From assembly GCA_030535425.1 (NCBI GenBank), contig JAUNHQ010000032.1, positions 1-34,943 of the forward strand: a DNA stretch of 34,943 bases, read 5' to 3'. A model generated the notes under the pieces. The model was given only the letters and a program-made list of their open reading frames with translations. It did no database searches and was not told the DNA's origin. This document shows positions 535 to 10,255 of this stretch, piece after piece; position 1 is the first letter of the stretch, and the number at the start of each line of letters is the position of its first letter. Source of the stretch: Pseudomonadota bacterium (GTDB taxonomy: Bacteria > Pseudomonadota > Gammaproteobacteria > Burkholderiales > Burkholderiaceae_C). A program made the position numbers and the translations under genes.

Positions 535-3510
535 TTAGTCGGTCAGCTCCCCCACCGGCACACAGCTGCAAAACAGGTGCCGGTCGCCGTGCACGTTGTC
601 TACGCGGCCGATGGGGGGCCAGTATTTGCGGCCCAGTTGCGCTGGGGGCAGGGCGGCGGCGACTTCGCGGGTGTAGGGGTGGGGCCAGTCGGCGCGCAGC
701 AGGCTGGCGGCGGTGTGGGGGGCGTTTTTCAGGGGGTTGTCCTCGCGTGGCCATTCGCCGCTTTCCACGCGGGCGATTTCGGCGCGGATGGCGATCATGG
801 CGTCGATGAAGCGGTCCAGCTCGGCCAGGGGTTCGCTTTCGGTGGGCTCGACCATGAGCGTGTTGGGCACGGGAAAGGACAGGGTGGGGGCGTGAAAGCC
901 ATAGTCGGCCAGGCGCTTGGCCACGTCTTCGGCCATGACGCCGCAGCTGTCTTTGAAGTGGCGCAAGTCCAGGATGCATTCGTGCGCGACGTGGCCGCTG
1001 GCGCTGGCGTAGAGGGTGGGGTAGTGGTCTTTGAGGCGCTGGCTGATGTAGTTGGCGCTGAGGATGGCCGCTTGCGTGGCGTGGGTCAGGCCCGCCGCGC
1101 CCATCATGCGGATGTACATCCATGAAATAGGCAGGACGCTGGCGTTGCCGTAGGGGGCCGCGCTGATGGCCCCCACGCTCCCCGCTGCGCGTGGTTCGCT
1201 GCCCCCCGAGGGGGCTGATCCGCCTTGGGACGGCCCTGCGGCGGATCGCGCTGCGCTTGCGGCCCCCACGCTCCCTGCCTCGCGCGCATCACCCCCCGTG
1301 GCGTGGCCGGGCAGGTAGGGCACGAGGTCTTGGGCCACGCAGACGGGGCCGACGCCGGGGCCGCCGCCGCCGTGGGGGATGCAGAAGGTTTTGTGCAGGT
1401 TCAGGTGGCTGACGTCGCCGCCGAACTGGCCGGGCGCGGCCAGGCCGACCAGGGCGTTCATGTTGGCGCCGTCCACGTACACGCGGCCGCCGTGCTGGTG
1501 CACCAGGGCGCACAGGTCTTTGACTTGCGCTTCAAACACGCCGTGGGTGCTGGGGTAGGTGATCATGACGCAGGCGAGCTGCTCGCTGTATTGCTCGCAT
1601 TTGGCTTGCAGGTCGGCCATGTCCACGTTGCCTTGCGCGTCGGTGGCGGTGACGACGACTTTCAGCCCCGCCATGTGCGCGCTGGCGGGGTTGGTGCCGT
1701 GGGCGCTGGCGGGGATGAGGCAGACGTCGCGCTGGCCCTGGCCGCGCGCTTGCTGCCAGGCGCGGATGGCCAGCAGGCCGGCGTATTCGCCTTGGCTTCC
1801 GGCGTTGGGTTGCAGGCTGACGCCGGCGTAGCCGGTGATGCTGGCCAGCCAGGCGCACAGCTGCTGGTTCAGCTCGGCGTAGCCGGCCAACTGATCGGCG
1901 GGGGCGAAGGGGTGGACGTGGGCAAACTCGGGCCAGGTGATGGGGATCATCTCGCTGGTGGCGTTGAGCTTCATGGTGCAGCTGCCCAAGGGGATCATGC
2001 TGCGGTCCAGCGCCAGGTCTTTGTCGCTCAAGCTGCGGATGTAGCGCAGCATGGCGGTTTCGCTGTGGTGGGTGTTGAACACCGGGTGCGTCAGATAGGC
2101 GCTGGTGCGGCGCAGTTCAGACGGCAACAGCGCCGGGGCCGTGGCCTCAAGCGCGGCAAAGTCGGGCAGCGGCTGGCCATTGGCAAAGATGGACCAGAGC
2201 AGCTCGACGTCGTCACGGCCGTGGGTTTCGTCAAACGACACGCACAGGTAATCTTTCCAGGCTTTTCGCAGGTTGGCGCCCGCCTGAACTGCGCGAGCAG
2301 CTATGGAATCGGTAGCGGCGTCGGTTTTGAAGCTGACGGTGTCAAAACCCGATTCATGGTGCATGGCGTTAAAGCCCAGCTGTTTCATGCCCTGCGTGAA
2401 GATGCTGGCCAGGCGGCTCACGCGCTCGGCGATGGCTTTCAAGCCCTGCGGCCCGTGGTAGACGGCGTACATGCTGGCCACCACGGCGGGCAGCACCTGC
2501 GCGGTGCAGATGTTGCTGGTGGCTTTTTCGCGGCGGATGTGCTGCTCGCGCGTTTGCAGCGCCAGGCGCAGGGCGGGGTTGCCGTGCGCGTCCACGCTCA
2601 CGCCCACCAGGCGGCCGGGCAGGCTGCGCTTGAAGGCGTCTTTGCAGGCCATGTAGGCGGCGTGCGGGCCGCCCGCGCCCATGGGCATGCCCAGGCGCTG
2701 GGTGCTGCCCACCACGATGTCGGCGCCCATTTCGCCCGGGGTTTTGAGCAGGGTGAGGGCCAGCAGGTCGGCCGCAAAAATCACTGCTGCGCCTTTGGCG
2801 TGGGCGATCTCGCTGGCCGTTGACCAGTCGGCCAGCCAGCCGCTGCTGGCAGGGTATTGGATGAGGATGGCGAAGTAGTCGTCGGCGGCCAGCGCCGCAT
2901 CCCACTCGGCCTGGTCGTTGGCGATCTTGAGGTTGAGGCCCAGCGGCGCGGCGCGGGTTTGCATGACCTCGATGGTTTGCGGGTGCGCGTCGCCAAACAC
3001 CACGATGGTCTGGCCCTTGGCCTTGACGCTGCGCTTGGCCAGCGTCATGGCTTCGGCGGCGGCGGTGGCTTCATCGAGCATGGAGGCGTTGGCAATGTCC
3101 ATGCCCGTGAGGTCGCACACCATGGTCTGAAAGTTCAGCAGCGCCTCCATGCGGCCCTGGCTGATTTCGGCCTGGTACGGCGTGTAGGCGGTGTACCAGG
3201 CGGGGTTTTCCAGAATGTTGCGCAGAATGACCCCCGGCGTGTGGCAGCCGTAGTAGCCCTGGCCGATAAAGCTTTTCATCTGCCAGGCGTTGCGGCTGGC
3301 GATGGCTTTGAGCTCGGCCAGCGCGGCGGCTTCGTCCACGGCGGCAGGCAGGGGCATGGGTTCGGTGCGGGCAATGCTGCGCGGCACGATGGCATCGACC
3401 AGTGCCTGGCGCGAGGCCATGCCCAGCACACTGAGCATGTGGCGCTCGTCATCCGGGGTCAGGCCAATGTGGCGGGCGGCAAAGGCGGCAGAGGTATCCA
3501 GTGCGGTCAT
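535..3510 (-). CDS. gcvP: Glycine dehydrogenase (decarboxylating), P protein of the glycine cleavage system
   Basis: This is a 991-residue PLP enzyme that decarboxylates glycine and passes the aminomethyl group to lipoyl-GcvH in the cytoplasm. The N-terminus ([17 protein letters not shown]), [11 protein letters not shown] and [18 protein letters not shown] are diagnostic; the PLP lysine is K707 (codon 1390-1392). The ATG at 3510 was chosen because FAARHIG then falls at the usual distance; an upstream in-frame start at 3573 would add 21 low-complexity residues. About 31 extra residues (around 751-781) lie between LPGHATGG and GAISAAPYG and coincide with an in-frame DNA repeat (separate entry). 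gcvT and gcvH are not in the window, so gcvP is separated from them here or they lie elsewhere. Confidence 0.96.
1168..1275 (-). repeat. In-frame palindromic repeat insertion inside gcvP
   Basis: A 15-bp direct repeat, GGCCCCCACGCTCCC, occurs at 1168-1182 and again at 1261-1275, giving a 93-bp (31-codon) unit. Inside it are an inverted repeat GATCCGCC (1217-1224) / GGCGGATC (1240-1247) and a C5-GA-G5 hairpin (1203-1214). In the protein it produces a partial duplication (GSVGAASAA then GSVGAISAA) around a Gly/Ser/Pro-rich stretch. The motif resembles a short dispersed element I recall from Comamonadaceae intergenic regions; that recollection is unverified. Confidence 0.75.
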
Positions 3511-3658
3511 GGCGGGCGGGGCAAATGGTGGGAAGGGGTTGGGGAAAAGGGCAGAGCCGCGTGGCAGCGGCATGCCGGAAGTCTGCGCGATGGCATGCCG
3601 GATTGCAAATGCCGCAGGTGACGCGGTGCGGGCCGCATGGCCAGGCGGGAAGAGGTAA
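3511..3658 (-). promoter_or_regulatory. gcvP upstream region with paired GGCATGCC palindromes
   Basis: An 11-bp direct repeat GGCATGCCGGA lies at 3569-3579 and 3592-3602. Each copy contains the 8-bp palindrome GGCATGCC, and the copies are spaced 23 bp apart, about two helical turns, some 60-90 bp upstream of the gcvP ATG. This geometry suits a regulator binding two sites. I see no tandem glycine-riboswitch aptamers and no strong promoter hexamers. The ribosome binding site before 3510 is weak. Confidence 0.35.
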
Positions 3659-7943: not shown

Positions 7944-8357
7944 TTACCAAACGTCTTTGTTGTACTGGTCAAAGATGACCACGCCCGGATAGTTTTCACG
8001 CACGAACTCACCGATGTTGATGACTTCGTCGGTAAACCGGCGATCTGGATCGTCGCCAAAACCGATGGCCAGCTCCTTGTTGTAAGACAGGAAGTTCTCG
8101 GGCAAGGTGGTCTTCTTTTTTAGAATTTTTTGCAGCTCGCTCAGGCTGAGCGTCATGTCTTCTTGCTCCCTGATGTTGAAGCGCACTCGCCAGCCTTCCC
8201 TTTCCAAGATAACTCGCGTGATGGCCGGGAATTCCAGCGTCTCCGTAGACACGGTGTATTCCTTGATCCACGGAAACTTCTGGCTTAGATCGCGAATCAG
8301 CGACTCGTTGTCGATGCTATTTGATGGATCATGCAAAAGAGCAAAAAGGGTAAACAT
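7944..8357 (-). CDS. Putative immunity protein 1 of the toxin locus
   Basis: A 137-residue acidic cytoplasmic protein (MFTLFALLHDPSNSIDN...), no signal peptide or membrane segment; I do not recognise its family. It follows the toxin gene by 9 bp, and its GAAGG ribosome binding site overlaps the toxin stop codon (TGAAGG), which suggests translational coupling. A paralogue at 9833-10246 matches at 113 of 137 residues by my count, with differences concentrated at about residues 42-60. Small size, position directly after a toxin gene and a diversified duplicate nearby are the hallmarks of polymorphic-toxin immunity genes; the role is inferred from these. Base composition is lower in GC than the flanks. 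Confidence 0.72.
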   Translation of the reverse strand: MFTLFALLHDPSNSIDNESLIRDLSQKFPWIKEYTVSTETLEFPAITRVILEREGWRVRFNIREQEDMTLSLSELQKILKKKTTLPENFLSYNKELAIGFGDDPDRRFTDEVINIGEFVRENYPGVVIFDQYNKDVW

Positions 8358-8366
8358 GATATGCCT

Positions 8367-9554
8367 TCAAAGCTCCAGCCGCTGGCCGGATGTGATTGGA
8401 ATAGCTACCAGTTTACCATCTTTCATTTGCTTCACGGAGCCACCAGTTTCCAGAATTTTTTCAATCAACGGCGCAGACACAGTTTTTGTGTTCGGGCCAA
8501 TCACGATACTAAATTCTAGGTTATTTTCCTTGGCATATTTGTAAAAAGCATCCAGCTGTGGACTGGCGGTCAGGTTCTGGACATTTTTCACATCTGTGAC
8601 TCCCCATTTCTTGCCCACAGGAAAGTCGGGAAGGTATCCATCAATGGCAACAGGTTTGGAGCCTGGTCCCATAGGCAGTTCCAAGGCCTCACGTACTGTG
8701 CTCTCAAACGAGTTGCCAGCCCGGTTGTTGGCCCAAATGGTTTCTGCCTTTTTCATCCAGGCATCCGGGGGCAAAGGCTCTTTGCCTTCTGCGGCCACCC
8801 TGTTCAAGTAGCGTTCGTAGCGTGCATGGTGCTGCGATGGAATGTTGCCGAAATCAATGCCCTTGCCGATTGTCCCAAACTCATCGACCTGGCTCTTAAT
8901 GTCCTGCAAGGGCTTGCGCATGGACTCTGGAAGCTTGTCAAGGGGCAATTTGTCCAGCGTTGCTTGAAGGGTATCCATGGCCGGGCGGAGCTGTGCCCAT
9001 ACAGCGGGATTGGACTTCGCGGCATCTATAGATTTGGCCACGGTTTCTGCCCATTTGCCCAATTTGCCGAGTTTTGCGGCGTCCCCCACATAAGGCACGG
9101 TACTGAGCGCACTCAGCCCAGCGCCCAGCAAGTCTCCCCGGAACAAAGAAATCAGGGCGTTGGTGCCGTCGGAAATGGGGGTTGGGTCAAAAATACCCGT
9201 CAAATCCAAACCCATCTGAGTCAGATCGGCAATCAGTTCGCCATCAATGCCGTCCTTTTTGCCGGCTTGGGCGGCCATGTCTTCATCCAAAGGGGCGGGT
9301 TTGCCCATTTTTTGCAGGCCCGCGCTAACGTCTGCCGCCTGATGGCTCTCCAAGGCAGGGGCTATTTCGTTGAGCAAAGCCGTCCGCTTGTCAGGGTCGG
9401 CAATCTTGGCCAGCTCCTGCGTCAAGTAATGCGTATTGGGGACACCCAGATGACTGGCCGTGTCAAGCAGATCCTGGGCTTCGTCCGAAAGCCCGGCAGC
9501 GGCTTGCAATGCGTTATCTGCGCCGCGAGTGACATGAGAAATGGAAGGTGGCAT
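8367..9554 (-). CDS. Polymorphic toxin: pre-toxin domain plus REase-fold nuclease-like C-terminus
   Basis: 395 residues. The first ~105 are helical with no recognisable delivery domain. Residues ~108-168 (DLTGIFDPTPISDGTNALISL, then GAGLSALSTVPYVGDAAKLGK) match the pre-toxin segment seen just before toxin domains in many secreted polymorphic toxins. The C-terminal ~155 residues look like a restriction-endonuclease-fold toxin of the Tox-REase-7 kind: E284 in NSFESTV, D310 in YLPDF, D321-x-K323 in TDVKNV, then Q333 and YAKENN. DNA is the likely target (inference). No PAAR, RHS, VgrG or signal peptide is present, so it may be a cargo effector or a toxin that lost its N-terminus. The ATG at 9554 is preceded by AAAGG; upstream in-frame starts add residues unlike the family. 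GC is low (40% counted at 8401-8460). Confidence 0.8.
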   Translation of the reverse strand: MPPSISHVTRGADNALQAAAGLSDEAQDLLDTASHLGVPNTHYLTQELAKIADPDKRTALLNEIAPALESHQAADVSAGLQKMGKPAPLDEDMAAQAGKKDGIDGELIADLTQMGLDLTGIFDPTPISDGTNALISLFRGDLLGAGLSALSTVPYVGDAAKLGKLGKWAETVAKSIDAAKSNPAVWAQLRPAMDTLQATLDKLPLDKLPESMRKPLQDIKSQVDEFGTIGKGIDFGNIPSQHHARYERYLNRVAAEGKEPLPPDAWMKKAETIWANNRAGNSFESTVREALELPMGPGSKPVAIDGYLPDFPVGKKWGVTDVKNVQNLTASPQLDAFYKYAKENNLEFSIVIGPNTKTVSAPLIEKILETGGSVKQMKDGKLVAIPITSGQRLEL

Positions 9555-9832
9555 GACCCAATACCTTTTGAAGTTGAGCGAGCGGCACGCGAAACCCATG
9601 CGGCTACTGTGCCAAGCCATTGGATCAAAATAAGAACGCCATGCACATCCGTAGGATTGCCAGCTGGTATGACTACCAATTGGTGAAACTACCTACCTGC
9701 CCCAAGCCGGGTGCTTCAGACGAACTGCTTCGTCGTCAAGCGCGTCGCCCCAAACAAGAGCCCGCCTTGGGCAGAAGGCGGGCTTTTGTTACTGGTACGG
9801 AAGGCGTGCGCCCCTCAGCACAGGGCGCGCCG
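9555..9832. other. Intergenic stretch between toxin start and second immunity gene
   Basis: 278 bp without a supported gene. It must hold the toxin promoter if the toxin is not read from upstream, but I see no strong -35/-10 pair. Two hairpins lie near its upper end: 9760-9783 (separate entry) and an imperfect GGCGTGCGCCC (9803-9813) / GGGCGCGCC (9823-9831) directly after the second immunity gene's stop codon. Composition stays lower in GC up to about 9700. Confidence 0.6.
9760..9783. terminator. Hairpin terminator after second immunity gene
   Basis: GCCCGCCTT (9760-9768), 6-nt loop, AAGGCGGGC (9775-9783). On the plus strand it is followed by TTTTGTT; on the minus strand, the direction of the immunity gene, by TCTTGTTT. 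It should separate that gene's transcript from the toxin gene. Confidence 0.65.
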
Positions 9833-10246
9833 TTACCAAACGTCTTCGTTGTACTGGTCGTAAATCACCACCCCCGGATAGCTCTCTCGCACGAATTCAC
9901 CGATGTTGATGATTTCGTCGGTAAACCGGCGATCTGGATCGTCGCCAAAACCGATGGCCAGCTCCTTGTTGTAAGACAGGAAGTTCTCGGGCAAGGTGGT
10001 TTTCTTTTTTAGAATTTTTTGCAGCTCGGTCAGGCTGATCGTCATGTCTTCTTGCTCGCGTATCTCAAACTCAATCTTCCAGTTCTCTTTTTCCATCACA
10101 ACCAGCGTCGCCAAGGGAAATGTCAGAGTTTCGGTGGAAATGGTGTATTCCCTTATCCAAGGAAATTTTTGTCTCAGGTCACGAATGAGCGAATCGTTGT
10201 CAACGCTGTTCGAGGGGTCGTGCAAAAGAGCGAAGAGGATGAACAT
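9833..10246 (-). CDS. Putative immunity protein 2, paralogue of the 7944-8357 gene
   Basis: 137 residues, about 82% identical to the first copy. The two genes share an uninterrupted 87-bp identical DNA block (8025-8111 and 9914-10000, coding LPENFLSYNKELAIGFGDDP and neighbours), while residues ~42-60 differ strongly (FPAITRVILEREGW against FPLATLVVMEKENW). This mosaic suggests recombination keeps the scaffold alike while a toxin-contact region diverges. The leader keeps the same GAAGG site overlapping a TGA as in copy 1, although no intact toxin gene precedes it. It may be an orphan immunity gene against a lost or foreign toxin variant; function is inferred. Confidence 0.7.
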   Translation of the reverse strand: MFILFALLHDPSNSVDNDSLIRDLRQKFPWIREYTISTETLTFPLATLVVMEKENWKIEFEIREQEDMTISLTELQKILKKKTTLPENFLSYNKELAIGFGDDPDRRFTDEIINIGEFVRESYPGVVIYDQYNEDVW

Positions 10247-10255
10247 GATGCGCCT

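Follow-up and report, generated by a model that had tools for sequence, protein, structure and literature searches.

A short palindromic element lying in frame within gcvP and other genes of Betaproteobacteria

The best-known palindromes that form part of protein-coding genes are those of Rickettsia, and there they could be put down to genome reduction and relaxed selection. As described in the relevant passages of two reviews, Rickettsia palindromic elements are dispersed palindromes found in frame in unrelated genes, with a conserved peptide for each family (PMC10969869, PMC2229807); those passages give a length near 150 bp (PMC10969869) and 12-bp terminal inverted repeats (PMC2229807). In-frame fusions are also reported, in a passage of one of these papers, for some of the bacterial MITEs ERIC, Correia/NEMIS and YPAL (PMC2229807). 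The main text of a REP survey (PMC3733652) makes no mention of Acidovorax, Comamonas, Delftia or Variovorax, and the relevant content of PMC2755013 concerns CRISPR only. No description of the repeat analyzed here was found among the papers listed by searches of the openly available literature.

The element within gcvP

The window, that is, the whole stretch of DNA that was analyzed (34,943 nucleotides), includes gcvP with an element inserted in it. The features are the following:

535..3573, minus strand: gcvP, glycine dehydrogenase (P-protein), 1012 aa as ORF, matching the solved GcvP 9uz6, 4lgl and 6i33
1160..1169, plus strand: sequence GCGCTGATGG, adjoining the left end of the element at the place of the target motif
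1170..1241, plus strand: palindromic element, 72-nt core (CCCCCACGC ... GGCCCTGCGG), 99% identity to the 72-nt query
1173..1194, plus strand: inverted repeat H1, arms CCACGC (1173-1178) and GCGTGG (1189-1194), from the sequence
1201..1215, plus strand: hairpin H2, GCCCCC-CGA-GGGGGC, whose minus-strand reading is APSGGS in GcvP
1217..1247, plus strand: hairpin H3, copy-specific arms GATCCGCC (1217-1224) and GGCGGATC (1240-1247), from sequence and fold
1248..1262, plus strand: spacer between the full element and the putative truncated second unit
1263 to about 1281, plus strand: putative truncated second unit (CCCCCACGCTCCCTGCCTC), holding most of the right-hand 15-bp repeat
1390..1392, minus strand: codon of K728 in HLNLHKTF, coordinates by arithmetic from the residue number

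A palindromic repeat lying in frame in gcvP had been proposed in the initial annotation. This is borne out by an ORF translation that runs uninterrupted from end to end, insert included, and by three further full copies in the assembly; the true start of the gene may be codon 22 of the ORF. The unit is made up of CCCCCACGC at its start followed by three short hairpins, H1, H2 and H3, where two inverted repeats had been counted. H3 has a GCC-TTGGGRCGGCCCGGC-GGC core with variable outer arms, and once the right arm of this terminal hairpin is counted the window element reaches 1247 (1170-1247). The 15-bp sequence GGCCCCCACGCTCCC is indeed present at 1168 and again at 1261, 93 nt apart, as had been described, but it is element sequence. 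A plain target-site duplication was considered for these repeats and rejected, as they correspond to the start of the element and to the start of the putative truncated second unit. In the empty relative G028, the site of the second unit already reads GATGG-CCCCCACGCC.

At the protein level, the stretch of GcvP between HGGGGPG and ISW is 34 residues longer here than in the common 51-residue form. A gain of about 31 residues had been estimated, a value that fits genome G014, the other filled genome of the genus, with its insert at the same place, rather than the window. Among the 21 genomes of the genus in which the stretch was read, 19 lack the insert, and hence the added residues are not a shared property of close relatives; gcvP of G018, outside these 21, is also empty by flank spacing. 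The native length in empty alleles ranges from 40 to 58 residues, and the corresponding gap in solved GcvP is of about 10 residues (4lgl 757-768, 9uz6 739-750); the initial annotation gave about 12 residues for E. coli. The insert stands about 40-75 residues after K728, the lysine of HLNLHKTF, which we take to be the PLP lysine. As judged from the translated sequence, the segment behind this lysine is lengthened by the element.

The fold of the window copy as DNA contains H2 and H3, with H1 missing, and that of another copy (L066) includes H1. Fold z values of four copies (-1.5, -0.5, -2.1 and +0.3) are unremarkable and, with a value of only -1.5 for the window copy, folding energy alone is not significant. 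The arms of H3 differ among copies, yet they tend to remain complementary. This was counted on 51 unique arm pairs with 27 different left arms, each arm being of 6 nt and the core between the arms an exact match. From the innermost position to the outermost, 46, 44, 38, 38, 43 and 4 Watson-Crick pairs were formed, their total of 213 comparing with a mean of 128 and a maximum of 154 in 2000 shuffles; the mean stem over 161 copies was 5.74 vs 3.61. No inverted pair of at least 12 nt spans the element when positions 900-1600 of the window are searched. Rfam covariance models, run at seven element loci with E up to 1, gave no family matching the element, the sole matches at these loci being two glycine riboswitch aptamers upstream of gcvT.

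Units are also frequently in tandem in relatives, with a period of 81-87 nt in 18 arrays and spacers of 9-14 nt; two of the steps, of 83 and 85 nt, are not multiples of three. One in-frame case is in Acidovorax sp. Leaf160 (L219, 514-1006), where six tandem units lie in frame in an RND permease-like gene and amount to about 164 residues. In another array (L053, 1331-1573; genome G010), whose three units lack clear coding sequence around them, the H3 arms are A/T-rich (GTTTTTCATC / GATGAAAAC), those of most other copies being GC-rich. In mpl of genome G190 (L063, 1501-1653), the sequence between units repeats exactly 14 nt of the left host flank (GGCAAGGCTCGGAG), which may be a vestige of the process that creates tandem units.

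Elsewhere in the window (7946-10255), a 440-aa ORF (8369-9692, minus strand) matches Pfam Tox-REase-7 close to its C-terminus. On either side of it lies an ORF of 139 aa; these two resemble each other, have no Pfam match and may be duplicated immunity genes.

Distribution of the element and the genes that hold it

The assembly from which the window derives (3.31 Mb, 144 contigs, 88.6% complete) contains four full copies, namely that of gcvP and three more with E values of 1.6e-20 to 5.4e-14; the next-best of the 34 matches listed is of 21 nt (E 0.014). With this copy number, a chance likeness to a repeat is excluded. Three of the copies lie in frame inside genes: gcvP, glnE (L002) and gcvT (L003), the last identified by an NCBIfam equivalog match. 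The fourth (L004) is located at the 5′ end of truB, after the stop of the preceding gene; an ORF that may extend beyond the actual start of the gene runs through it, with its Pfam TruB domain from residue 59 onward. The glycine cleavage pathway thus holds two of the four copies (gcvP and gcvT). On contig C58, the two glycine riboswitch aptamers (861-1088 of L003) lie upstream of the element-bearing gcvT (1166-2374).

Within the genus, 24 of 29 genomes carry the element, that of the window included, with up to 66 matches in one genome, and the single-contig genome G004 has 33. In a sample of the family, the carriers were 251 of 399 genomes, spread over 111 of 141 genera; scoring took in two candidates for each genome of this sample, and copy numbers there are lower bounds. 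A sample of the order gave matches in 21 of 399 genomes, of which ten belong to the same family and the remaining 11 to six further families. Among the matches listed, the named carriers are Acidovorax, Paracidovorax, Variovorax, Hydrogenophaga, Xenophilus, Polaromonas and Simplicispira, together with Ottowia, Ramlibacter, Giesbergeria, Limnohabitans, Rhodoferax, Curvibacter and Pseudorhodoferax. From these names the carrier family appears to be Comamonadaceae-like, and the carriers are mostly environmental bacteria. Two contigs from metagenome bins, titled Desulfovibrionaceae and Gammaproteobacteria, matched as well; these bins may be misassigned. Five of 72,556 plasmid records match the element, and no match was obtained in the phage sequences searched. 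On a plasmid of Rhodoferax antarcticus, a RefSeq CDS for a Fic protein is annotated straight through a copy.

To locate copies relative to genes, coding potential was scored over 240 bp on each side of an element cluster, leaving out the element itself, with a codon model trained on 12 pieces of known genes (12,306 nt). Excluding 10 clusters near contig ends and removing 21 duplicates left 139 non-redundant clusters, a set biased to query-like copies, as its loci were best matches or exact pattern matches. In this set, 83 clusters were in frame inside genes; the remainder comprised 37 with a one-sided coding signal, 10 with signals on the same strand in different phase, five without signal, three in the same phase with a stop and one with signals on opposite strands. 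A held-out set gave 32 of 62 clusters in frame. By the strict rule, the clusters of G004 were in frame in 16 of 23 cases (four one-sided, two shifted, one without signal), and in G014 the figure was 15 of 26 clusters, for 30 of 49 matches examined.

The same rule called 1356 of 3000 random points in-gene (45%; 400 kb of one relative), which indicates that the element does not avoid genes; as the held-out value is barely above this, gene enrichment is not claimed. With 37 one-sided and five signal-less clusters, a good part of the 139 may sit at gene ends or be intergenic. These counts modify the initial annotation in several respects. The resemblance that had been seen to an intergenic element of Comamonadaceae stands insofar as copies are present in many genera of this family, but by the rule used they are not mainly intergenic. 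Insertion in coding sequence, there noted as not known for this family, is the commonest state in both sets and not an exception, and further copies entering ORFs in frame are found in glnE and gcvT of the same genome and in clusters elsewhere. With three more full copies in the assembly and others across many Comamonadaceae genera, the repeat is not confined to gcvP.

For the naming of hosts, 30 in-frame host ORFs were chosen for NCBIfam, and 29 matched, some under the curated cut-off or as fragments; one host (L041) is FemAB-like by Pfam. The best names include GcvT, TopB, GlyQ, MoeA, Mpl, MetX, PurL, RecQ, guanine deaminase, HrpA, error-prone DNA polymerase, acetoacetyl-CoA ligase, a P-type ATPase, ValS, biotin carboxylases, AmgK, TrpE, IcmF, threonine synthase, UvrA, an RND permease and a sensor kinase, among others. 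ValS of G004 has two insertions in a single protein (L071, 1501-2147), and L317 is occupied at the same two sites. Some of these enzymes, such as those encoded by valS and glyQ, are essential, which suggests that the lengthened proteins probably work.

Reading frames, target motif and movement

The frame of insertion was scored by reading H2 in the host frame. The 83 in-frame clusters gave 46 APSGGS, 33 LPPEG, two PLGGQ, one PPRGA and one unreadable peptide; the frames CPPRG and AAPRGG were never used. LPPEG or APSGGS is therefore read in 79 of 82 readable insertions, and in 31 of 31 in the held-out set, which shares some host sites with the first. Openness was counted on 222 full-length matches, with overlapping loci uncollapsed and three lacking a readable H2: of 219 copies, 217 are open in APSGGS, 215 in LPPEG, 216 in PLGGQ, 205 in PPRGA, 219 in CPPRG and 188 in AAPRGG. 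The GC-rich element is nearly stop-free in six frames, and many insertions in genes consequently stay open. When the data are reduced to 46 host regions, the two frames account for 43 of 46 readable region-frame entries (p 1.4e-17 vs 2/6, with the choice of these frames based on the data under test). MetX is the one region with both frames; the element lies there at nearly one position but points either way, depending on the genome. The two accepted peptides, one frame per strand, have a high content of Gly, Ser, Pro and Ala and a low charge; consensus translations of the avoided frames contain more Arg, Cys or Trp. The bias would thus reflect selection that acts on the protein when the element inserts. 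Selection at a later stage was tested by codon position, and the pattern was the same in both frame groups, without a signal.

The left flank of the element has an A-rich motif at positions -10 to -1, approximately RAGAATRTGG, in 141 copies without another copy upstream, with G at -1 in 86% and A at -6 in 50% of the flanks. The motif holds when each host region is given one vote (summed information of 2.44 at -10..-2 vs 0.55-1.00 elsewhere). In gcvP, GCGCTGATGG occupies this place, and its presence in empty alleles identifies it as host DNA. Conserved codons, for instance those for HWKN, RNLM and GHDCG, contain the motif, a possible reason for the occupation of the same protein sites in different genera.

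Comparison of alleles points to mobility. The filled alleles are not sisters in a tree built from gcvP of 21 genomes and need two changes, the sister of G014, G005, being empty (100/100 support); a single gain followed by several losses would also fit the tree. Between the window genome (G000) and G014, the 92-nt insert has two differences, whereas the genes are 81.7% identical; this would result from two hits of the same site by closely similar copies or from exchange of a single short tract. In glnE, the genus has filled, doubled and scar-like (MVPPR..) alleles, the scars presumably being decayed copies; G017 is filled and G025 has no full copy, their flanks being about 97% identical. Target-site duplication does not appear to be regular. 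There is a small excess of words shared between flanks (mean of 3.71 vs 3.41 in shuffles, maximum of 200 shuffles 3.66; 89 single copies) and a duplicated stretch at gcvP of G014. Copying of the host flank into the H3 arm was considered as well: the words that the right arm has in common with the left flank are slightly longer than in shuffles (3.60 vs 3.27, maximum of 200 shuffles 3.55), but in two filled/empty pairs read by eye (L072/L038 and L082/L061) the H3 arm is part of the insert.

Taken together, these data very probably describe a small non-autonomous mobile element whose genic copies are kept in two frames encoding mild peptides. The element would insert beside the A-rich motif of the host (about RAGAATRTGG), starting at the CCCCCACGC that follows and without avoiding genes, and would be moved by an enzyme acting on hairpin DNA. 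Insertions in genes would then be kept almost only in the two Gly/Ser/Pro/Ala-rich, low-charge frames, and copies might afterwards multiply into tandem arrays or degenerate to scars that keep the frame, as in glnE. The added stretches would be translated and tolerated. The best reading is that of a selfish element, neutral or slightly harmful, with a filter that lets coding copies persist when their peptides are mild; a host function is possible, and nothing here requires one. Going further, we consider it conceivable, though on balance doubtful, that the element is adapted to life in proteins, with two translation-friendly frames, one per strand, and a motif steering it to A-rich conserved codons; it would then spread selfishly through coding DNA, and essential enzymes would have been lengthened many times independently.

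Other explanations have to be weighed against this one. The variation of the HGGGGPG..ISW stretch between 40 and 58 residues in empty alleles would suit a native lengthening of the GcvP linker, or an assembly error, with a likeness to a repeat arising by chance. Copies of high identity are, however, present in unrelated genes, in G004 with its single contig and in named isolates, and RefSeq annotates the Fic CDS of the Rhodoferax antarcticus plasmid through a copy, all of which leaves this next to no probability. The frame bias, in turn, could be set by the codon phase of the target motif instead of by selection on the peptide, since a motif lying in the conserved codons for HWKN, RNLM or GHDCG would fix the phase there. 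We think this rather unlikely: copies that start as APTLP or as PPRSP, in different phase, both arrive at LPPEG, which argues for peptide filtering, both orientations are used, and 46 different host regions agree. It might also be that the stretch has been domesticated and gives GcvP, GcvT and other hosts a selected regulatory or interaction property, an idea that gains from the presence of two of the four copies of the genome in one pathway and from the occupation of the same sites in several genera. However, the named hosts have no function in common, the gcvP insert is missing in 19 of the 21 genomes read, the target motif can account for the recurrence, and no codon-position constraint is seen; we consider domestication very improbable.

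The nature of the mover bears on a further alternative, in which the element is of REP type and is moved by a RAYT (Y1) transposase, its genic copies being incidental. The covarying arms of H3 are what would be expected of a substrate recognized as single-stranded DNA, and matches to the Y1 transposase family (PF01797) occur in 20 of the 29 genomes of the genus. Nevertheless, no convincing element was detected beside PF01797 in 30 loci examined of the 46 matches listed, which covered about 1.5 kb on each side where the contig allowed it; the best stray hits were of 12-23 nt. Moreover, G006, G008, G012, G016, G022 and G024 carry the element without a PF01797 match, G012 and G024 being element-rich, whereas two of the five element-free genomes (G023 and G026) do have such a match. 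REPs are also extragenic by name, and the element is mostly genic. This origin is therefore unlikely, although it keeps a small share of the probability. Genome G027 has eighteen matches to the Y1 family, several with identical score and some split in two pieces.

Relation to described palindromic elements

The presence of the element in essential genes such as valS and glyQ of mostly environmental bacteria indicates that relaxed selection does not seem to be required for palindromes to enter coding sequence. Filled and empty alleles across many genomes make the tolerance of repeated insertions of 25-35 residues, their frames and sites, and the movement of the DNA open to testing. For annotation and structural work they are a warning that such stretches are mobile DNA and not conserved function.

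With the bacterial MITEs ERIC, Correia/NEMIS and YPAL the element shares its small size, its non-autonomous character and its many copies. It departs from them in that the in-gene state is the commonest, and it may also do so in its ends, no inverted pair of at least 12 nt spanning it, and in target-site duplication, which does not look regular. Palindromic units, tandem clusters and hairpins are also features of REP/BIME and RAYT-linked palindromes, but the present element is not mainly extragenic and was not found beside Y1 genes in the 30 loci examined.

Compared with Rickettsia palindromic elements, the unit is shorter (81-87 bp vs about 150 bp) and no inverted pair of at least 12 nt spans it; instead, it has three short local hairpins, tandem arrays and an A-rich target motif. 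Each strand has one preferred frame, a single genome can have as many as 66 matches, and the carriers named are Betaproteobacteria, mostly environmental, and not Rickettsiales. By length, ends and host, as set against published descriptions, it is not a Rickettsia palindromic element. The likeness initially drawn to that group holds as a way of working: in both, a palindrome lies in frame in unrelated genes and gives them common peptides, here in two frames.
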